Below, in pieces: positions 12,348-47,090 of a DNA stretch of 57,470 nucleotides. Below the pieces are notes generated by a model. It was not told the origin of the DNA, did no database searches, and saw only the letters and a list, made by a program, of their open reading frames with translations. The translations under genes and the position numbers were made by a program. Position 1 is the stretch's first letter. Each line of letters opens with the position of its first letter. The stretch is taken from the NCBI GenBank assembly GCA_900318375.1, contig ONKG01000008.1:1-57470 (forward strand), read 5' to 3'. Source of the DNA: an uncultured Lachnospiraceae bacterium (GTDB taxonomy: Bacteria > Bacillota > Clostridia > Lachnospirales > Lachnospiraceae).

Positions 12348-12426
12348 GTGCAAAAAAGGATATGACCTGTTACAATAATTGTACTGCACAGGGCAAAGCC
12401 GCCGTTTTTACGGAGGTGATTGTGTG
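12348..12426 (+). promoter_or_regulatory. comEA promoter and SD-sequestering leader (shared with comEC)
   Basis: An extended -10 (TGTTACAAT, TACAAT 12371-12376) with a weak -35 places the transcript start near 12383. The short leader contains GCACAGGGCAAAGCC (12386-12400). GCCGCCGT (398-405) can pair with ACGGAGGT (410-417) around a UUUU loop with one G-A mismatch, covering the Shine-Dalgarno. TGCACA (12385-12390) can pair with TGTGTG (12421-12426), which includes the GTG start. The same element precedes comEC at 17467. This is a candidate riboswitch or translational switch; no ligand is known. Confidence 0.65.
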
Positions 12427-13392
12427 ATTATTAATTGGAGTATTGATTTTTTAAACGCAGCTGTCCGTAATGTCAGAAGGCTGCGATTTTCTGTTGAAAA
12501 AAACAACATCCTGATTATCGCCTTGCTATTGCTGTCTCTGTTCTTTTTGTGCAGCTGCTCCTCAAGAGCGGAAGAGCCCGTTTTGGAGACAATCAGGACC
12601 CAGGAAAGCGCAGACGATCCTGGATCCGGAGAAAGGAAAGACGGCATCATATCCGGAGACAACAGCGACAGGGTTTCATCCGGAGGCGGCAGTGACAGGG
12701 CTTTATCCGGAGACAACAGTGACGGGGCTTCATCCGAAAACAGCAAAGGCAGTACCTGGTCCCGGAATGATACTGGAGATCAGACTGCTTCCGGCGGTGC
12801 GCTGAGCGCACCCGGGCAGGAGGAATATGACAGCCGGCAGCTTCTTACAGTACATGTCTGCGGCGCGGTTAAGAAGGAAGGCGTGTACACACTTCCGCCG
12901 GGCAGCCGGATCCGCGACGCGGTTGATGCCGCCGGCGGATTTTCCGAAGATGCGGACAGGTCCTACCTGAACCTGGCAATGGAGCTGGAGGATGCATGGC
13001 AGATTCGTGTACCTGCAAAAAAAGAGACAGAAGCGCTTGAGACACCGCAGAGCGCGGCAGAACAGGGATCGTCGATGAACGCCGGAGGCGGTTACGGAGT
13101 TCTGACCGGACAGGATTCTCCTTTTATTGTAAAAGGAGGAGCGGCCGGCGACGGGACCGGGACGGGCGGCTCCCTTCAGGAAGGTTCAGACACAGAGAAC
13201 GAGAAAATCAATCTGAACACAGCAACTGCACAGGAGCTGATGAAAATACCCGGCGTCGGTGAAAAAAAGGCGCAAAGCATTATAGACTATCGTGAAAAAA
13301 ACGGGCGGTTTGAGGCAATCGAAGATCTGATGAAGGTTCCCGGCATCAAGGATGCCAGTTTCCGGAAGATGAAAGACTACATCACGGTGTGA
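12424..13392 (+). CDS. comEA: ComEA-like DNA-binding competence protein
   Basis: The 322-residue protein starts at GTG 12424, set by GGAGG 7 nt upstream. It has an N-terminal hydrophobic segment (about 32-45, ending LFFLCSCSS, so possibly a lipoprotein or membrane anchor), a repetitive Ser/Gly/Asp linker (about 65-130), an SLBB domain (about 138-200, VHVCGAVKKEGVYTLPPG) and a C-terminal pair of helix-hairpin-helix motifs (about 258-322, INLNTATAQELMKIPGVGEKKA). This is the ComEA layout: an anchored receptor that binds incoming double-stranded DNA and hands it to ComEC, whose gene is 4 kb downstream and shares the leader. Confidence 0.85.
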   Translation: MIINWSIDFLNAAVRNVRRLRFSVEKNNILIIALLLLSLFFLCSCSSRAEEPVLETIRTQESADDPGSGERKDGIISGDNSDRVSSGGGSDRALSGDNSDGASSENSKGSTWSRNDTGDQTASGGALSAPGQEEYDSRQLLTVHVCGAVKKEGVYTLPPGSRIRDAVDAAGGFSEDADRSYLNLAMELEDAWQIRVPAKKETEALETPQSAAEQGSSMNAGGGYGVLTGQDSPFIVKGGAAGDGTGTGGSLQEGSDTENEKINLNTATAQELMKIPGVGEKKAQSIIDYREKNGRFEAIEDLMKVPGIKDASFRKMKDYITV

Positions 13393-13460
13393 ATAAATAT
13401 CTACAGGATATATCTGAGGCAGATATATCATTTTACATAATTTGAAGGAGTGACAGATTT

Positions 13461-14162
13461 ATGGCATTAAAGATACTGGTCGTGGACGATGAGAAAATGA
13501 TCGTGAAAGGACTGCGCTTCAGTCTTCTTCAGGATGGGTACGAAGTGGATTGTGCCTATGACGGGGAAGAAGCTGTCAACATGATCCGGGAAAAACAGTT
13601 TGACATGATTCTTCTGGATGTAATGCTCCCCAAACTGTCGGGGTTTGAAGTGCTGCAGCAGGTCCGGGAGTTTTCGGATGTGCCGATCATTATGCTCACT
13701 GCACGCGGTGATGACATGGACAAAATTCTCGGCCTCGATTACGGGGCGGACGACTATGTCACCAAGCCCTTTAACCCGCTGGAGGTCAAGGGGCGGATCA
13801 AAGCCATTCTCCGCCGCACCTCACGCGGAAAAAAGGCTGAGGCTGTAAATGAGAACATCATTGAAGTGGGTGATCTGCGCATGGATCTGGACAACCGCCG
13901 TGTCACTCTTTCAGATAAGGAAATCAATCTGACCAGCAAAGAATTCGAGCTGCTCGAGCTCCTTGCGACACACGCCGGTAAGGTCTACAGCCGAACCATG
14001 CTGCTGCAGATGGTATGGGGCAAGGAATACCCCGGTGACGTTCGAACAGTGGATGTCCACATCCGCCGTCTGCGTGAAAAAATCGAACACAATGCTTCAG
14101 AGCCCAGGTATGTGCAGACAAAATGGGGAGTCGGCTACTATTTCCGCAGCCAGGAGAAGTAA
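13461..14162 (+). CDS. OmpR/PhoB-family response regulator
   Basis: The 233-residue protein has a receiver domain (residues 4-118; acidic pair D9 D10, phospho-acceptor D53 in LLLDVMLPK, switch Thr in MLTARG, Lys in TKPF) and a winged-helix DNA-binding domain (about 132-230, LTSKEFELLELLATHAGKV and VDVHIRRLREKIE). It is close in style to WalR/PhoP regulators. AAGGAG lies just before the ATG. Its partner kinase follows after a 265-bp repeat-filled gap, so they are probably co-transcribed. Targets are not evident from this window. Confidence 0.9.
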   Translation: MALKILVVDDEKMIVKGLRFSLLQDGYEVDCAYDGEEAVNMIREKQFDMILLDVMLPKLSGFEVLQQVREFSDVPIIMLTARGDDMDKILGLDYGADDYVTKPFNPLEVKGRIKAILRRTSRGKKAEAVNENIIEVGDLRMDLDNRRVTLSDKEINLTSKEFELLELLATHAGKVYSRTMLLQMVWGKEYPGDVRTVDVHIRRLREKIEHNASEPRYVQTKWGVGYYFRSQEK

Positions 14163-14427
14163 GAAGTCCTGATCGGAGAAATGTGAAGTTTCGGAGAACG
14201 AAGTAACGATGTGCGGAAAACCAGACATCTCATGAGGAGGGCTGAGAAGTCCTGCCCGGAGAAATGAGAAGTCCTTTACAGACGGGACAAGTTGTTCCTG
14301 GCTTGAAAGCAGCAGTTACGTGCCTAAAAGCAGCAGTCCCAGGCTTGAAAGCAGCAGTTACGTGTCTGTAAGCAGCAGTCCCAGGCTTGAAAGCAGCAGT
14401 TTTGTGTTTGTAAGATAAAGAAAATCT
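14163..14427 (+). repeat. Tandem repeats between response regulator and kinase genes
   Basis: Two imperfect copies of a GAGAAGTCCTG...CGGAGAAATG segment (about 14156-14275) are followed by three copies of a 42-bp unit (about 14295-14420) built from two half units sharing AAGCAGCAGT. The last copy runs to within 20 bp of the kinase start and leaves it without a strong ribosome site. No gene is seen. Confidence 0.75.
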
Positions 14428-16287
14428 ATGCGTGAAAAAATCAGGAGGATCCTTGACAGACTGACTATTTTCAAAAGTCTGCGGGTCATATTTTTCATCA
14501 TTATATTTATGGTCGGTGTGGTGCCGTGCATTCTGCTTCAGAACGGTATCCTTCGAAACTACGAGGAGCGTGCTGTCGAAGTGCGTGTGGAGCAGGTCAA
14601 GGGCCAGCTCCGGTCCCTGGCTAACCACCTGATCAACAGCAACTATCTGGTCAACCCCGAGTCCGGACAGGTCGATGCGGAGCTCTCCGAATTCTCGACT
14701 TTGTACGACGGACGGCTCATGATCATCGACACGACGCTGACGGTTGTCAAGGACACTTACGGGCTGTCGGAGAATAAGACGATCGTCTCCCAGGATGTCA
14801 TTTCCTGTCTTGTGACAGGAGAGCGCAGTGGTTCGGAAAATTACGACAGAAAATACGGATTTATTGAAATTGTCGTCCCTATCATCGAGACTAAATCCAT
14901 GGAGGGCCTGGACTATGTTGTAAACGGCAGCGACAGCACTTCCGAAAAAGACAAAAGCATCGATTCCATACAGGGAATCCAGAACGACGGGAATAACCAG
15001 GCAAATACAGTACGAGGCGTACTGCTTGCCAGTACTTCTACGGAATATATCCAGAAGACCAAGGAAATCCTGAGAAGAAAGGCTTTTATGCTGCAGCTGG
15101 TCATGCTGGTCATTGTCTTTTTTGCGTCCATCTTTTTTTCCGGTATGCTCGTGCGTCCTTTTGAAAAGCTGTCCATAGACATCCTTGAAGTCAAGGAGGG
15201 ATATTCCAACGAGCCCATTTCCGCGCCTCAGTACACAGAGACTATGCACATCGCGGACTCCTTCAATACTGTTCTTGGCCGCATGAACGCTCTGGACCAG
15301 TCGCGGCAGGAGTTTGTCGCCAATGTTTCTCATGAGCTCAAGACACCCATGACATCCATGAAAGTTCTGGCAGCGTCTCTGTTGTCGGAGGAGAATGTGG
15401 ATGCCGCTGTCTACAGGGAATTCCTGGAGGATATCGACAGCGAGATCGACCGTGAAAACAAGATCATTTCGGATCTTCTGGCCCTGGTCAAGGAGGACAG
15501 GACTGATATTGATTTCGAGGTGTCAGAGACGGATATCAACGGGCTTGCCAAAAATGTCTTAAAGCGCATGCGTCCGATCGCGGAAACCCGGGATATTGCA
15601 CTGACCCTTGTGAATCGCAGGGAGGTATTGGCGGAGGTCGATTCCACCCGCATAAATCTGGTGCTGACAAATCTGGTGGAAAATGCTATCAAATACAACA
15701 GGGAGCATGGAGAGGTCACTGTTACCGTCGATGCGGATGAAGAATATTTTGAACTGATCGTCTCGGATAACGGCATCGGAATTCCCGAAGAGGAGCAGAC
15801 ACGCATCTTTGAGAGATTTTATCGTGTAGACAAATCCCGCTCCCGTGAGATCGGCGGCACCGGACTTGGGCTGTCGATCACAAAGAGCGCGATCATCCGC
15901 CATCACGGAACGATTTCGGTCGAGAGCACAGAGGGAGAAGGAACAACCTTTACAGTGCGGATCCCCCTTCATTATTCTGAGCAGCCTATGGAACTGCGTG
16001 TCGGGAATCAGCGCAGACAGATCCTGCGTCTTTTGCGGGGAGGCAGAAAAGACAGTGCCAAAAAAGAATACATGGAAAAAACAGTCCATGTCTCCAGGCG
16101 TAAATTCAAACCAGGGTCAAAAGCGGCGGACAATCCGCAGAATCAGCAAAATCCTCAAAATTTGCAAAAACCGCAAAATCAGCAGAATCCGCAAAACCAG
16201 CAGAATCCGCAGAACTATGACCGGGAGCTGGTGAATGAGAATTTCGAAGATAAAGCACCGGGACAGGAAGGGGGGCATCGGACATGA
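14428..16287 (+). CDS. Membrane sensor histidine kinase
   Basis: The 619-residue protein has TM1 (about 19-39), an extracytoplasmic sensor region (40-218), TM2 (220-242), HAMP (about 240-292), HisKA with VSHELKTP (phospho-acceptor His302) and HATPase_c with N-box Asn419, DNGIGI (448-453) and GTGLGL (478-483). This is a complete, active-looking kinase of the WalK/PhoR type. The C-terminal 80 residues are atypical: basic, then a Gln/Asn/Pro repeat (NPQNQQ, coded by about 16129-16215). It overlaps the next gene by 4 bp. The ribosome site is weak; no better start is seen. Confidence 0.88.
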   Translation: MREKIRRILDRLTIFKSLRVIFFIIIFMVGVVPCILLQNGILRNYEERAVEVRVEQVKGQLRSLANHLINSNYLVNPESGQVDAELSEFSTLYDGRLMIIDTTLTVVKDTYGLSENKTIVSQDVISCLVTGERSGSENYDRKYGFIEIVVPIIETKSMEGLDYVVNGSDSTSEKDKSIDSIQGIQNDGNNQANTVRGVLLASTSTEYIQKTKEILRRKAFMLQLVMLVIVFFASIFFSGMLVRPFEKLSIDILEVKEGYSNEPISAPQYTETMHIADSFNTVLGRMNALDQSRQEFVANVSHELKTPMTSMKVLAASLLSEENVDAAVYREFLEDIDSEIDRENKIISDLLALVKEDRTDIDFEVSETDINGLAKNVLKRMRPIAETRDIALTLVNRREVLAEVDSTRINLVLTNLVENAIKYNREHGEVTVTVDADEEYFELIVSDNGIGIPEEEQTRIFERFYRVDKSRSREIGGTGLGLSITKSAIIRHHGTISVESTEGEGTTFTVRIPLHYSEQPMELRVGNQRRQILRLLRGGRKDSAKKEYMEKTVHVSRRKFKPGSKAADNPQNQQNPQNLQKPQNQQNPQNQQNPQNYDRELVNENFEDKAPGQEGGHRT

Positions 16288-17423
16288 AAAAAGATACCGC
16301 TTTCCTGACGAACATCCAGAGAGATTTCCGGACAGAATTCCAGTCGGATTTCCGGACAGAATTCCAGCTGGATTTCCGGACAGAATTCCAGACAGAATTC
16401 CAGCCGGATTTCCGGAGGGATTTCCAGACAGAATTCCGTACAGATCTCCGGACGAAAAAAGCTGTGCAGCCTCTATTGCGGAATGCAAAGCTGAGCCGAA
16501 TCATAGCATACCTTCTTATTCTGTGTCTTCTGGGCGGTCTGTGCGGCAGCCTTTCAGGCTGTGCAGCAGCGAAAGAAGACGAGGAGGCAGTACGTGTTTT
16601 TTATCTGAATTCGGAAAAGACCGGACTCATTCCCAAAGCCCAGAAGCTCCATGCGGAATCCGTCTATGGAAAGACAGAAGAACTGCTGGACCTTCTTGCA
16701 TCTGTCCCGGACGGTGAGATGTATTGCGCACCCATCAGCGGATTTGAACGCAAGGATTACTCGATCGAGAATGATACAGTGCTTCTGGAGTTTTCCGGAG
16801 AGTATCGGAGTATGGATACGATCTCCGAAAAGCTGACCCGTGCCGCAATCGTCAACACGTTGTGTGAACTTACTGAAATCCACCACGTCACAATCCGTGT
16901 GAACGGAGCCCTGATCGTGGATGAACACGGGAACAAATCGGAAAATATGACCGCGAACCAGTTTATCTACAACGCCGGCAGCGAAATGCTCAACTTCGAG
17001 CGTGAGGAAATCCACCTTTATTTTGCTTCTGAGGACGGCAAATCGCTGGTCGAGACTTACAGAACTGTTGTTTTCAACAGTAATATTCCCATGGAGAGAC
17101 TGGTCGTTCAGGAAATCATCCATGGGCCGAATACGGATTTCAATTATCCGACGGTCAATGAAAATACGAAAGTCGTAAACATTCTGACCCGTGACAACAT
17201 CTGCACAGTGACACTGGATTCCACTTTTCTCACGAATCCCTATTCGGTCGACCCCGAGGTCGCTGTTTACTCGATCGTCAACTCCCTCACGGAGCTCCCT
17301 GCAATACGCCAGGTCCAGATCATCATTGAAGGAGAGAACAACCCTGTTTTCATGGATACCTTCAAGCTTGATTCGGAGACCCTGCTGCAGAAAAACACCA
17401 AACTCATCCAGACCAGACAATAA
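16284..17423 (+). CDS. GerMN-domain lipoprotein with repeat-coded N-terminus
   Basis: The 379-residue frame overlaps the kinase by ATGA. Residues about 14-57 are repeats of FRTEFQxD, followed by a hydrophobic segment (about 71-92) and lipobox LSGC (Cys93). The mature part carries two GerMN-like domains (about 105-235 and 245-375), as in GerM and the lipoproteins often encoded beside two-component pairs. A 70-residue n-region is abnormal for a lipoprotein signal; a GTG at 16464 would give an ordinary one but has no clear ribosome site. The protein probably sits outside the membrane and may feed into the adjacent kinase; that is inference. Confidence 0.75.
   Translation: MKKDTAFLTNIQRDFRTEFQSDFRTEFQLDFRTEFQTEFQPDFRRDFQTEFRTDLRTKKAVQPLLRNAKLSRIIAYLLILCLLGGLCGSLSGCAAAKEDEEAVRVFYLNSEKTGLIPKAQKLHAESVYGKTEELLDLLASVPDGEMYCAPISGFERKDYSIENDTVLLEFSGEYRSMDTISEKLTRAAIVNTLCELTEIHHVTIRVNGALIVDEHGNKSENMTANQFIYNAGSEMLNFEREEIHLYFASEDGKSLVETYRTVVFNSNIPMERLVVQEIIHGPNTDFNYPTVNENTKVVNILTRDNICTVTLDSTFLTNPYSVDPEVAVYSIVNSLTELPAIRQVQIIIEGENNPVFMDTFKLDSETLLQKNTKLIQTRQ
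16325..16450 (+). repeat. 24-bp coding tandem repeat in the lipoprotein N-terminus
   Basis: Imperfect copies of GATTTCCGGACAGAATTCCA with a variable 4-base end encode FRTEFQ-type octapeptides. About five to six copies are present. The array lies before the lipoprotein signal, not in the mature protein. Confidence 0.85.
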
Positions 17424-17431
17424 ATATATTG

Positions 17432-17516
17432 TTGAAAATATTCAAAAATATGGTATAATGAACTTATCGCACAGGACAAAGCCGCCGTTTTGGATAACGG
17501 AGGTGTCTGAGCGATG
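17432..17516 (+). promoter_or_regulatory. comEC promoter and SD-sequestering leader (shared with comEA)
   Basis: TTGAAA (17432-17437), a 16-bp spacer and an extended -10 TGGTATAAT (TATAAT 17454-17459) place the transcript start near 17466. The leader is almost entirely the conserved element: GCACAGGACAAAGCC (17469-17483). GCC-G-CCGTT (481-489) can pair with AACGG-A-GGT (496-504) and so hides the Shine-Dalgarno. TCGC-A-CAG (467-474) can pair with CTG-A-GCGA (507-514), reaching the start codon. It aligns with the comEA leader but has a longer loop (TTGGAT against TTTT) and an extra T-A loop-closing pair. Confidence 0.7.
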
Positions 17517-20318
17517 CATACACGGATAAATCGTGCACACGGCGCAGCCACCCGAAATACTCGGGGGCTGCGCTTTTTTTCTTATATGACAAGAAGACCG
17601 CTGTTTGCATTTTTTTCAATCCTTGCAGCCGCCATTGGGCTCACAGTGCTGCTCCTTCCAGTGAGAATCAACGATTACGAGTCCCTGCGGGAGGAAAACG
17701 TGCAGCTGACCGGCACAATCAGCGCAATTGAACAAAAACCGGAGGGGGATATGCCGGTCTGGCGGATGATCCTCACCGACGTAGACATAGAAAAAATGAA
17801 CCTGTCCGCGGGAGCGGGGACCGGAAAGAAAGCAGGTATGAGCGAAGCCTCTGACAAAGATGGGACAGGGGAAAAAGCGGTCATGAACGAATTCTCCGAC
17901 AGAGGTGAAATCGGTGAAATCACTCTGGATAAAGACAAGAAAGTTCTCTGTGTGCTGGATCATGCGCCGGAAGGAGAAATGAGTGCCCGCGTTCGTGTCA
18001 GGGGAAAGCTGTTTCCATTTCGCAGCGCCATGAATGAAGGGGAATTTGACCTTCGCATGTACTACCACATCCTGCGGATAGAGTTTTCTCTGCGCGATGC
18101 TGAGATCATGGCCGTCTCTGCGCCCACAGACAGGATTGCGGCAATACTTTTCAATTTCAAAAAAAATTTGTCCTCTATTATAGACCGTGTCTTTTCCAAA
18201 CAGAATGCACCAATCCTGAAAGCCATGCTTTTAGGGGAAAAGGGCCTTTTGGAAGAAGAGACAAAGGAACTGTATCAAGGAGCAGGAATTGTTCACATTC
18301 TCAGTATCAGCGGGCTTCACCTCTCCCTGATCGGGATGGGACTTTTTTCGCTGACCGGAAAGTGCAGGTTTATTCCCCTGCCGCTCCGCGCGGCATTATC
18401 AGTTATTGCAGTTTTTCTGTACGGAAAAATGATAGGTTTGGGCACATCTGTTTTCCGTGCCCTTATCATGCTGACTCTTTATATCATTTCAAAAGTCATC
18501 GGCAGGACCTATGACCTTCTGACAGCTGCCTCCATCGCCGCATTTCTCCTGCTGCTGGACCAGCCTCTTTACCTTCTTCATACAGGCTTCCAGTTCTCAT
18601 TTGGTGCTGTCCTTGCGATTGGCATTCTGCTGCCTGCCCTCCCCGGCCGTGCCCTGAAGACGCTGGCCATTCCGGCTGCCACTCTGCCTGTTTATTTATG
18701 GGCGTACGGCACTTTTCCCGTCACTTCTCTGCTTTTGAATCTGATCGTCATCCCTCTTATGACAGTCGTCATGGTCAGCGCCGGCGGAGCTGTGCTGCTG
18801 GCAGGACTGCCTGACTTTTTTTCAGGCGGAGGCGGAATGCCGGATACTCTCTCCGCTAACAGAGCGCTGCCGTCCGCTCTGAAATGGCTTCCGCGTATCC
18901 TGGGCCTTCCTGCGGAGCTGATCCTGGATTTTTACCGTTTCCTCGCCGAATCTTCCGAAAAGATTCCCGGACATGAGATTGTATTGGGCAGACCTTCACC
19001 GATCCGGATTCTGTTTTTCTATATTATGCTGCTTATCCTTGCGGCCATCTCTGTCCGTCTCCAGATGCCGCACATGCGAAGGCGTATCGAAGCGGAAGCA
19101 GTTTCCATGCACACTGAAGATGATGGCCGGAAGAAACTCGACCACTTTGTTGAAAATTCTGATCGGAAGAAATACAGCAGTCTGGATGAAAACCGGGCAG
19201 ACATGCTATTGCGTCGGGCGGCTTCAAAAATATGTCAGATGCTTCATCTTCGTGACAATCACTCAAGAAAGAACTTTGCCTGCATTTGCACCGTCCTATG
19301 GATGGCTGCTGCATTTTTTGTGCTGGTATACCACCCTTGGCCGGCTTTGGAAGTGGATATGATCTATGTCGGACAGGGGGACGGAATCTTTATCAGTTCC
19401 CGGGGAAGGCATTTCCTGATCGACGGTGGAAGCTCTACCAAAGAGGAACTTGCCAAATACACCTTGCTTCCATATCTGCACAATAAGGGAGTTGGCCGCC
19501 TTGACGGAATCTTCCTGACCCATGACGATACAGATCACTGCAGCTGCCTTCTTGAATTCCTGGAAGCAGCAGCGGAGGACAAGCCTCTCATCCTGATTAA
19601 TGCTGTGTATCTTCCCGATATCGCAGAAGCCGCAAAAGGTGAAAACTATAGAAGGATCGAGCTGCTTTCCGGACAGGTCGGTATCCCAGTCTGCTACATA
19701 AGCCGGGGACAGCGGATCCGCAGCGGGAACCTTACCCTGGACTGCCTCCACCCTGCGCGGGGGGCCTCTTATGAGGATGCCAATGAATACTCGACGACTC
19801 TGCTGCTGAGGTATGGAGATTCTTCAAAATTGATATCAGACAATTCCGACATTGCCTCACGTTTGTCAGGAAAAGAAAAGGGCTTCTCTGTTCTCTTTAC
19901 CGGGGACCTGGAAGGGCAGGGAGAGGAAGATTTTCTGCACTACCTCGCGGAGACAAAGCTGCTGAAAACTCAAGATGGCTTGCTGAATATTGATGTACTG
20001 AAAGTAGCTCATCATGGCAGTAAAAATGCTACTTCCTCGGAATTCCTGCAGGCGGTGCACCCTGACATGGTCATGATTTCCGCGGGTATTAACAACATGT
20101 ACAAACACCCGTCAGAGGAACTGTTGAACAGGCTGGCAATATCGATTCCTGATTCATCTGTTTACAGGACAGATTTACAGGGGGAAATCACGATCTGCCA
20201 CAAGAAGGGGGGAGACGACTATCGAGTCAAGACCTTTTCAGGAGGCACAACAGAGGTTTTTTCTGCTTCGAAAAGAAGAAGCCTGGGAAGCGAAGCGACG
20301 GAAGTTCCGAAAAAGTGA
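17514..20318 (+). CDS. comEC: ComEC/Rec2 DNA-uptake channel protein
   Basis: The 934-residue protein has N-terminal membrane segments and a DUF4131-like region, the Competence channel domain (about 240-520, with many membrane helices and ILSISGLHLSLIGMGLF), a charged insert (about 525-600), then a metallo-beta-lactamase domain (about 615-880) with VGQGDGIFI, THDDTDHCSC (HxDxDH) and AHHGSKNATS. It should pass one DNA strand through the membrane while the lactamase domain may degrade the other. It is longer than the usual 750-800 residues through two inserts (Gly/Asp-rich near 100-145; charged near 525-600) and a C-terminus coded by the following repeat array (SEATEVPKK). Confidence 0.9.
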   Translation: MHTRINRAHGAATRNTRGLRFFSYMTRRPLFAFFSILAAAIGLTVLLLPVRINDYESLREENVQLTGTISAIEQKPEGDMPVWRMILTDVDIEKMNLSAGAGTGKKAGMSEASDKDGTGEKAVMNEFSDRGEIGEITLDKDKKVLCVLDHAPEGEMSARVRVRGKLFPFRSAMNEGEFDLRMYYHILRIEFSLRDAEIMAVSAPTDRIAAILFNFKKNLSSIIDRVFSKQNAPILKAMLLGEKGLLEEETKELYQGAGIVHILSISGLHLSLIGMGLFSLTGKCRFIPLPLRAALSVIAVFLYGKMIGLGTSVFRALIMLTLYIISKVIGRTYDLLTAASIAAFLLLLDQPLYLLHTGFQFSFGAVLAIGILLPALPGRALKTLAIPAATLPVYLWAYGTFPVTSLLLNLIVIPLMTVVMVSAGGAVLLAGLPDFFSGGGGMPDTLSANRALPSALKWLPRILGLPAELILDFYRFLAESSEKIPGHEIVLGRPSPIRILFFYIMLLILAAISVRLQMPHMRRRIEAEAVSMHTEDDGRKKLDHFVENSDRKKYSSLDENRADMLLRRAASKICQMLHLRDNHSRKNFACICTVLWMAAAFFVLVYHPWPALEVDMIYVGQGDGIFISSRGRHFLIDGGSSTKEELAKYTLLPYLHNKGVGRLDGIFLTHDDTDHCSCLLEFLEAAAEDKPLILINAVYLPDIAEAAKGENYRRIELLSGQVGIPVCYISRGQRIRSGNLTLDCLHPARGASYEDANEYSTTLLLRYGDSSKLISDNSDIASRLSGKEKGFSVLFTGDLEGQGEEDFLHYLAETKLLKTQDGLLNIDVLKVAHHGSKNATSSEFLQAVHPDMVMISAGINNMYKHPSEELLNRLAISIPDSSVYRTDLQGEITICHKKGGDDYRVKTFSGGTTEVFSASKRRSLGSEATEVPKK

Positions 20319-20956
20319 AAGATCACCACCATGGGAGAGGGAGCGAAGCGACCGGAGGCCGCAGCAGGAAAAAGGTCACGCGTGCCAGGAAAAAGCGAAG
20401 CGACCGAGGCGCCGAAAGAGCAAAAGATCACCACCATAGCGGAAGGAGCGAAGCGACCGGAGACCGCAGCAGGAAAAAGGTCACGCATGGTGCGAAAAAG
20501 TGAAGCGACAGAGACGCCGAAAGAGCAAAAGATCACTACTGAGGCAGAAGGAGCGAAGCGACCGGGAGCTGGGAAGGGAAAAAGGTCACGCATGGTGCGA
20601 AAAAGCGAAGCGACCTAGATGTTTCAAGAGCAAAAGATCACTACTGCGGGAGAGGGAGCGAAGCGACCGGAGGACGTGGAGGGAAAAAAGGTCACGCATG
20701 GTGTGAAAAAGCGAAGCGACCTAGATGTTTCAAGAGCAAAAGATCACTACTGCGGGAGAGGGAGCGAAGCGACCGGAGGACGTGGAGGGCAAAAGGTCAC
20801 GCATGGTGTGAAAAAGCGAAGCGACCGAGACGCCGAAAGAGCAAAAGATCACCACCATGGCAGAGGGAGCGAAGCGACCGGAGGCGGTGTAGGGCAAAAG
20901 GTCACGCATGGTGCGAAAAAGCGAAACGACAAAAATGAGACAAGAGCAAAAGATCA
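20293..20956 (+). repeat. 105-bp tandem array bridging comEC and the next gene
   Basis: Six units of about 105 bp and a partial seventh, each holding GCGAAGCGACC twice about 52 bp apart, GAGCAAAAGATCAC and AAAAGGTCACGC. Unit length is divisible by three, so long open frames run through it without ribosome sites; I treat them as non-genes. The first unit encodes the ComEC C-terminus. The last runs to 30 bp before the start of the nuclease-like gene. Units 4 and 5 are nearly identical, so turnover is recent. Confidence 0.9.
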
Positions 20957-20985
20957 CTACTATGAAAAAAGAAAGGGGTATTGGA

Positions 20986-21798
20986 ATGAATTTGCATGAA
21001 ATTATACAGATAGAGGCAGACAGGCTTGAAAAAGAGGTTCATGAATTGGAGACGAGGCTTGAAAAGGCTCCTAAAGGATCGCTGCGGTGTCATAAGAATG
21101 GAAAAAGCTTCAGGTGGTATTTCATAGACGAAAAAGATCATAGGGTAAAGGAGAAAAATGCAAAGCGAAAATACATTTCCAAAAAAACAGGGCGCCCTTT
21201 GGCAGAGAAACTTGCAAGAAAAGCTTATGACAAAAGAAAACTGGCTGGTTGTAAAAAAGAATTAACTGCGCTGAAAAGATATCTGAACTGCAGTAATTCT
21301 GAAATAATGCCGGAGCAGAAATACCTATGTGAGAACTCCGGATTCAGGGAACTGCTTATTTCTGGTATGCCATTAATGAACAGGGAATTAGAAGAATGGA
21401 GAGTGGCTGACTATCTCAGAAATCCGTTTTATCCGGAAAATCTTCAGATCTGTTCTTCTGACGGAACTATGGTGAGATCTAAATCAGAGGCTCTTATTGC
21501 CTCTGGACTGGCATCTAATGGAATCCCTTATCGATATGAGTGCGCATTGGAACTCGAAGGACAGACACTTTACCCTGATTTTACGATCAGGCATCCTTTT
21601 ACAGGAAAAGTATTCGTATGGGAGCATTTTGGTATGGTTGATCAGGAGGAGTATTTGGAACGCACACTGAAAAAACTCAGGGTATATCTTCGCAATGGCT
21701 TTATTCCCGATATTAATTTTATTATGACTTTCGAAACGCGTCAGGTGCCCCTGGGATACGATGTCGTTTTTCGAGTAATTCAGGATTATTTTATGTAA
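20986..21798 (+). CDS. PD-(D/E)XK nuclease-like protein
   Basis: A 270-residue protein starting at ATG 20986 (AAAGGGG upstream); an open extension to 20908 is repeat sequence. The N-terminal 100 residues are a basic, helical, coiled-coil-like region. The C-terminal part holds RSKSEALIA (Glu168), YECALEL, LYPDFTI (Asp198) and VWEHFGM (Glu213), the spacing of a PD-(D/E)XK nuclease core in which the last motif is WEHxG. I recall such stand-alone proteins as uncharacterised in Clostridia. Base composition is more A-rich than its neighbours, hinting at transfer. Nuclease activity is inferred. Confidence 0.6.
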   Translation: MNLHEIIQIEADRLEKEVHELETRLEKAPKGSLRCHKNGKSFRWYFIDEKDHRVKEKNAKRKYISKKTGRPLAEKLARKAYDKRKLAGCKKELTALKRYLNCSNSEIMPEQKYLCENSGFRELLISGMPLMNRELEEWRVADYLRNPFYPENLQICSSDGTMVRSKSEALIASGLASNGIPYRYECALELEGQTLYPDFTIRHPFTGKVFVWEHFGMVDQEEYLERTLKKLRVYLRNGFIPDINFIMTFETRQVPLGYDVVFRVIQDYFM

Positions 21799-46971: not shown

Positions 46972-46985
46972 CAAAAAATCTTACG

Positions 46986-47074
46986 CTATTTCCCTACGTT
47001 GGCATTATCCAAATCAGGTTCCGGGTCTGGACGATACAGTCCACTCTCAGCCGGCTGCAAGCCAGCTCCCCTTT
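46986..47074 (-). promoter_or_regulatory. TPP riboswitch aptamer (thi-box)
   Basis: On the minus strand the conserved blocks appear in order: GGGGAGCTGGC, CCGGCTGAGAGTGG, GACCCGGAACCTGA, TTTGGATAATGCCAACG and TAGGGAA. These are the THI-element CTGAGA, ACCTGA and GGATAATGCC signatures. With the terminators downstream it should shut off thiSFGHE when thiamine pyrophosphate is plentiful. Confidence 0.97.
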
Positions 47075-47090
47075 TTCTTTCTCTTTCAGC

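Follow-up and report, generated by a model that had tools for sequence, protein, structure and literature searches.

The 57,470-nt stretch of DNA analysed here, referred to as the window, is contig ONKG01000008.1 (positions 1 to 57,470, forward strand) of assembly GCA_900318375.1 and stems from an uncultured Lachnospiraceae bacterium. Two of its competence genes, comEA for the DNA receptor and comEC for the channel, are preceded by a short 5' untranslated region (UTR) that appears to fold back over its own translation start. By computation, a cis-acting fold of this kind closes the Shine-Dalgarno (SD) sequence and the start codon of comEA across much of the genus and in some members of the family, and it is also present on comEC in one subclade. 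It is probable that a single cis-regulatory RNA family gates the translation of comEA in part of the Lachnospiraceae and has been copied onto comEC in one subclade, and the findings suggest that DNA uptake is held shut by a hitherto unrecognised RNA switch. The family is a major component of gut and rumen communities; whether, or by what means, its members activate DNA uptake has to our knowledge not been reported, nor did a literature search, judged by titles and the openings of abstracts, turn up a paper on it. An RNA lock specific to this family and acting on the DNA receptor would provide a concrete handle on DNA uptake, as well as a case of a regulatory cassette that includes coding sequence and is reused across unrelated genes.

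In the window, comEA (12424..13392, + strand) has a GTG start and encodes SLBB and HHH_3 domains, with TIGR00426 above and TIGR01259 below the cut-off, while comEC (17514..20318, + strand) has an ATG start and encodes a PF03772 Competence domain, an MBL domain and a TIGR00361 match. The two genes have a 5' UTR of about 45 nt in common, of which the window holds two copies and 100 shuffles none. The block GCACAGGRCAAAGCCGCCGT lies at 12386-12405 and 17469-17488 and at no other site in the window at up to three mismatches, and the CAAAGCCNCCGT..ACGGAGGT pair is confined to the same two leaders within the window. Each leader begins right after a -10 box, in agreement with the earlier note on this DNA, which had placed both near a predicted transcription start: for comEA this is TACAAT at 12371..12376 (+), with TGT before it and the first leader arm 9 nt downstream, and for comEC the promoter TTGAAA-16-TATAAT at 17432..17459 (+), with TATAAT at 17454-17459 and TG before it. 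The leader takes up roughly the whole predicted 5' UTR.

The fold consists of two helices. P1 joins the first bases of the transcript to the start-codon region, P2 joins a pyrimidine strand to the SD sequence, and a purine-rich strand lies between them, which reads GGRCAAA in the window and often CGGG or AGGGG elsewhere. On the comEA leader (all + strand), the P1 5' arm GCACAG (12386..12391), near the predicted 5' end of the transcript, is followed by the junction J1, GGCAAA (12392..12397), which is of CGGGG type in most relatives outside the subclade, by the anti-SD strand of P2, GCCGCCGT, as predicted by folding (12398..12405), by the opposite P2 strand ACGGAGGT (12410..12417), which contains the SD sequence GGAGG (12412-12416), and by the P1 3' arm TTGTGT (12420..12425), which overlaps the GTG start codon at 12424-12426. 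The comEC leader (+ strand) has the same order: GCACAG (17469..17474), J1 GACAAA (17475..17480), GCCGCCGT (17481..17488), ACGGAGGT with the SD sequence (17497..17504) and the P1 3' arm CTGAGCG (17507..17513), which abuts the ATG at 17514-17516. Folding of the 50-nt and 54-nt leaders reproduced the pairing of GCC.G.CCGU with ACGG.A.GGU over the SD sequence and an outer helix to the start codon, both proposed in the earlier note, with moderate z-scores of -1.8 and -2.7; block search and folds together bear out a structured leader common to comEA and comEC that hides SD sequence and start codon. A dispersed repeat or mobile palindrome as the source of the two copies was rejected: when both strands of the own genome were scanned with the 18-nt block at up to two mismatches, the two leaders were joined by just three extra matches, each with two mismatches.

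Further examples before com genes, the absence of which would have spoken against the proposal, were found in the genus with a first covariance model (R1, from the eight closest leaders) and in the family with a second one (R2, from 20 leaders). An 18-nt core with one mismatch allowed matched 12 of 61 genus genomes, and reading of these matches reduced them to eight leaders from six genomes, each of which precedes comEA or comEC; in genome G008, too, comEA and comEC have an exact block of about 20 nt in common. R1 gave 17 hits in 62 genus genomes. Fourteen are com leaders, six of them outside the training set, and the other three comprise two near-identical hits in what reads as an ABC-transporter gene and one elsewhere. 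The ComEA profile was found in 60 and the ComEC profile in 57 of the 62 genomes, and most other comEA upstream regions of the genus bear a diverged leader that is built alike, with a 5' arm GCAYRG, a junction CGGG(G), the anti-SD/SD helix and a 3' arm. The 3' arm varies (CTATGC, CTGTGT, CTTTGC, CTGCGG) and shifts against the start codon, yet still pairs with the 5' arm; the helix between 5' end and start region reaches 13 bp in G004 and 11 bp in G017. Junctions fall into a GGRCAAA-like group A and a CGGGG-like group B, with GGG present in 28 of 31 group-B leaders. In all of the 45 leaders considered, a hexamer matching TATAAT in at least five of six positions ends 5-13 nt upstream of the P1 arm, compared to 38 of 880 control positions, and the leaders thus appear to begin at the transcription start, judging from -10 boxes that predict these starts.

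The genus leader set comprises 49 comEA leaders, from 49 of the 60 genomes with comEA, and six comEC leaders, 55 in total, and all 55 were used in the own-versus-swapped, codon-shuffle and 100-shuffle opening tests described below. Left out were G034, G029, G003, G032, G020 and G043, which are the same or nearly the same as included ones, G005, G058 and G002, which have no clear leader or start, and G050 and G056, which have no upstream sequence. G038, G047 and G049 are in the set and have no convincing P1. The hand-delimited pair table omits ten members (G038, G059, G006, G013, G045, G060, G041, G047, G017 and G049) and adds G029. The subclade was delimited by similarity, without a tree.

The P1 helix draws support from pairing tests and from covariation; taken alone, the eight closest leaders show no covariation. 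In an alignment-free test, the 5' end of each leader was paired with its own start region or with that of another species. Own partners paired better in the 55 genus leaders (-10.5 versus -7.8 kcal/mol), in 30 non-redundant genus leaders (-11.2 versus -7.8) and in 109 family comEAs (-7.06 versus -6.03), and in each set none of 10,000 permutations was as good; for 26 of the 109 family comEAs, the own partner outdoes more than 90% of the swapped ones. When 16 leaders were aligned by sequence alone, P1 had 14 double-change cells against 5.5 expected (0/500) and a covariation score of 0.36 against 0.19 (0/500), and P1 cells are paired in 87.5% of cases, compared to 18-20% and 40-49% when the helix is slid by one and two bases, respectively. 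The claim that pairs differ while pairing is kept, and the covariation check proposed along with it, hence held in the wider set and failed in the eight closest copies. For P2, separate covariation was not established, the result from the family alignment A4 being weak and this alignment too loose.

Closure of the ribosome-binding site (RBS) was assessed by its opening cost relative to shuffled leaders. The cost is exceptionally high at p<=0.05 for 58 of 109 family comEAs, 37 of 49 genus comEAs and six of six comEC copies, and for five of 106 control genes drawn from the window and the fetched loci; with 100 shuffles per gene, 44 of the 55 genus leaders are costlier to open than 95% or more of their shuffled versions. 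The start codons of the family set were picked automatically, and some are wrong (L217, L187 and L213, where the model indicates a later in-frame start), which adds noise to the family pairing and opening-cost tests. A conserved upstream open reading frame beginning with ATG, the only start considered, was rejected: of 46 leaders, 28 lack any ATG upstream of the start, and in the others it varies in place and frame.

Across the family, a ComEA-profile match was found in 118 of 120 genomes, each representing a different Lachnospiraceae genus, and 109 comEA upstream regions (29 + 80) were read, the window genome excluded. At E<0.02, R2 detected 14 of 80 family loci, five of the 33 same-family loci in another set of 58 and 21 of 58 genus loci, and 20 of these 40 positive loci are its own training loci. 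When family hits at E<1 were checked (n=25), 22 lay at the comEA start and three elsewhere, the latter with E values of at least 0.059. In 250 family genomes R2 gave 15 hits, ten at training comEAs, two at new comEAs, two elsewhere and one at a probable comEA cut by the contig end, judged from translations; in the 62 genus genomes it gave 13, of which 12 are at comEA places (five outside training) and one elsewhere. These whole-genome counts are lower bounds, because the search speed filters lose weak copies. The leader family is restricted to competence genes, the few non-com hits being taken as chance, within a search whose strict speed filters could let weak copies at non-com genes escape. 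An order-wide element is unsupported: among 25 comEA loci from the order's other families, R2 hit none, and three were closed at p<=0.05. An exact scan of named genomes returned 11 stretches, six in five Lachnospiraceae genomes, one in a metagenome-assembled genome of the Eubacteriales and four in unrelated taxa (Prevotella, two Porticoccaceae, Haloferax). As a separate observation, a second group of comEA leaders is present in other genera (L144, L148, L149, L150, L153, L176, L178, L181 and L185); several share a 5' box of about AUAGGCUGAAGAYGGYAUCC, several have a continuous hairpin over SD sequence and start codon, and none has an Rfam match over the leader.

The likeness of the two window genes extends beyond the start codon. 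A hairpin followed by a T run lies in the same frame about 30-65 nt into both coding sequences (comEA 12456..12490, codons ~11-23; comEC 17541..17580, codons ~10-23; both + strand), and its region encodes AA(V/T)RN..R.LRF in ComEA and ComEC, two non-homologous proteins. Six of the 30 comECs read (nine from the subclade, 21 others) carry the leader (G000, G008, G011, G014, G018 and G052), whereas the subclade comECs of G028, G009 and G037 and the 21 others have no R1 hit at E<1. On the leaderless comECs, R2 made one hit (E 0.92, L062), on the strand opposite to comEC. The three leaderless subclade comECs begin at MRRPLF, and leader-bearing ones have about 20-45 extra N-terminal residues with a comEA-like AA(V/T)RxxRxLRF, least clear in G018. 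On the simplest reading, the comEC leader apparently arose by in-frame transfer of promoter, leader and about 25 codons from comEA, and cassette duplication would be the route. In the comEC of G014 (L025), the in-frame terminator-like hairpin is tandemly duplicated within the first codons.

A strong hairpin with a U run about 25-100 nt into the gene recurs in comEC copies and several comEAs. In the window comEC it resembles a strong intrinsic terminator (-27.4 kcal/mol, a strength that none of 150 codon shuffles attained), and 13 of the 55 genes, including five of six comECs and with some of the 13 closely related to one another, are matched by at most five of 150 synonymous codon shuffles; here the hairpin with its U run exceeds codon constraints and is a predicted terminator. 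The pattern has two further sites only in the own genome, one of them a palindrome read on both strands, which likewise speaks against a dispersed repeat. Mutually exclusive pairing of leader and coding hairpin is visible in the window and, by eye, not kept in relatives, and was dropped.

These elements can be assembled into a tentative mechanism. In the closed state, which would be the default, 30S subunits would not load and translation would be off; a protein, small RNA (sRNA) or small molecule would read the purine-rich loop, open or lock the fold and thereby set DNA uptake. In some lineages, the terminator-like hairpin at codons ~10-35 would stop transcription of untranslated mRNA, in which case closure of the leader would shut down the mRNA as well; the U run seems, by eye, to be drawn from U-rich codons near the membrane segment. 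The earlier note envisaged a shared switch on receptor and channel genes. The shared closing leader stands, but to call it a switch would presuppose a signal, for which this analysis gives no evidence.

Several observations weigh against this picture. With about 50 bases added, the z-scores of the window leaders fall to -0.4 and -1.4, so that the folds are no longer exceptional, and the lowest-energy fold of comEA differs. No pair is changed on both sides in the eight closest leaders, which alone are therefore no proof of structure; in the 16-leader alignment the number of P1 pairs with a double change (four) is not exceptional (84/500), and alignment A4 gives only a modest excess (16/500). 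In the family, 51 of the 109 comEAs fall short of p<=0.05 for closure, and R2 fits a minority of loci, as the 14 of 80 and 5 of 33 given above illustrate. The coding hairpin of the window comEA is marginal, with 10 of 150 codon shuffles equally strong, and 15 of the 55 genes have no such hairpin, which makes this hairpin an accessory to the leader. Moreover, RNA polymerase outruns ribosomes in some Firmicutes, which would weaken translation-coupled termination.

Alternative explanations differ in what would act on the leader. It is conceivable, if on balance unlikely, that a trans-acting repressor, either an sRNA or an RNA-binding protein, targets the leader in the manner of RocR/RocC and that the fold serves to present the conserved block. 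The exact block of about 20 nt in comEA and comEC of the same genome, found in G008 as well, fits such a target, and an sRNA regulon of com mRNAs with comEA as a target is described for Legionella (PMC9674577, PMC7973641). P1, on the other hand, covaries within the leader RNA itself, and the own-genome search returned, besides the two leaders, only the three two-mismatch matches noted above, at a block length beyond that of sRNA seeds.

A riboswitch, with a small molecule bound at the conserved purine-rich P1-P2 junction so as to lock or open the fold, is a rather doubtful proposition. It would account for a conserved unpaired strand, GGG in most group-B leaders, between variable pairing helices, and for the lack of a conserved upstream ATG in the leaders. 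Against it stand the very small size of the fold, the differing junctions of groups A and B and the lack of a match to any known aptamer family. A broader and speculative version, to which we give only limited credence, is a so far unrecognised signal-sensing RNA class that governs the entry of foreign DNA in the Lachnospiraceae, whose junction binds a metabolite, a second messenger or a phage- or DNA-related signal, gates comEA translation, couples to intragenic termination and has been placed on comEC as a cassette of promoter, leader and codons. A passive or temperature-dependent lock, which would do no more than hold down comEA translation or would melt on warming in the manner of an RNA thermometer, is improbable to a similar degree as the riboswitch: it agrees with closure of SD sequence and start codon in many genera with little common sequence, but closure as such would not require the degree of conservation seen in the purine-rich junction and the GCAYRG arm.

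It is very unlikely that the inverted repeat (GCATAG...CTATGC) is a DNA-level operator at the promoter, bound by a regulator; although it is located at the predicted transcription start, the spacing of its arms varies widely with the loop (e.g. G004 versus G040), the place of its 3' arm relative to the start codon is not fixed, and in most leaders the SD sequence is part of P2. The least credible option, a degenerate or reduced cyclic di-GMP (c-di-GMP)-I riboswitch, goes back to a likeness of short words pointed out in the earlier note, has no support in this analysis and was rejected, with no cmscan match to any c-di-GMP family at E values up to 10, the first hairpin absent and the words in question missing in most relatives outside the subclade.

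The c-di-GMP-I riboswitch (RF01051) consists of two hairpins docked on a three-way junction, and its first hairpin forms part of the ligand site. According to the earlier note, the short words GCACAGGGCAAA and CAAAGCC occur in both; by comparison, the leader folds as one stem-loop with an internal loop, without first hairpin or three-way junction. More generally, a covariance search of Rfam 15 placed no family over either window leader at gathering threshold. Over 44 comEA loci (17, 18 and 9), only thiamine pyrophosphate (TPP) elements exceeded gathering, away from the leaders, and below-gathering matches (e.g. miRNA-like ones at 89-167 of L196) also lie outside them; the expectation that no known Rfam family covers the leader was confirmed for the window and for these loci.

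The comEA leader thus appears to represent a new RNA family, although hiding the SD sequence in a helix is a known mode of control. RBS-sequestering leaders, such as translational riboswitches, RNA thermometers and orphan motifs like dauA, hold the SD sequence, and sometimes the start codon, in a conserved fold; according to PMC11109978, the dauA motif holds the SD sequence in its fold and another motif has SD sequence and AUG in a P4 stem. In the comEA leader, by contrast, it is the extreme 5' end of the predicted transcript that pairs with the start codon; there is no Rfam match, the associated genes serve competence, and one lineage appears to have moved the cassette to a second gene. Pairing of the transcript 5' end to the start codon, combined with reuse as a cassette, would be an unusual design. 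In Legionella, RocR/RocC control com mRNAs including comEA post-transcriptionally via the 5' UTR (PMC9674577, PMC7973641). The leader resembles this system in the post-transcriptional control of DNA-uptake mRNAs through a 5' UTR, but RocR is a trans-acting sRNA that works with a ProQ/FinO protein in a proteobacterium, whereas the com leader folds in cis, has a covarying helix and occurs in a family of Firmicutes. The HMP-PP (thiS) riboswitch is similar in combining a compact leader with a terminator, and its aptamer is embedded in the terminator (PMC6478431), whereas the terminator-like hairpin of the com genes lies in the coding sequence, separate from the leader. Literature on comEA or comEC together with riboswitches, RNA motifs or natural competence contained, in the portions covered, no report of the leader. 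Competence, comEA and comEC go unmentioned in the main text of the genome-scan papers PMC11109978, PMC6429828, PMC8632094 and PMC2864571, a 2017 collection of 224 motifs being covered via Rfam only, and PMC5171806 mentions comEA once, for an antisense open reading frame.

The gene order in the window is comEA, OmpR-type response regulator, histidine kinase, Germane-domain protein and comEC. The response regulator and the histidine kinase sit between comEA and comEC at 13461-16287, and the Germane-domain protein upstream of comEC has N-terminal FRTEFQ/DFRTEFQ repeats (16284-16500). Directly 3' of comEC, at 20331-20999, lie open frames built of repeats of about 25 residues (e.g. KSEATEAPKEQKITT). 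Finally, a TPP riboswitch at the gathering threshold is located at 46973-47082 on the - strand.

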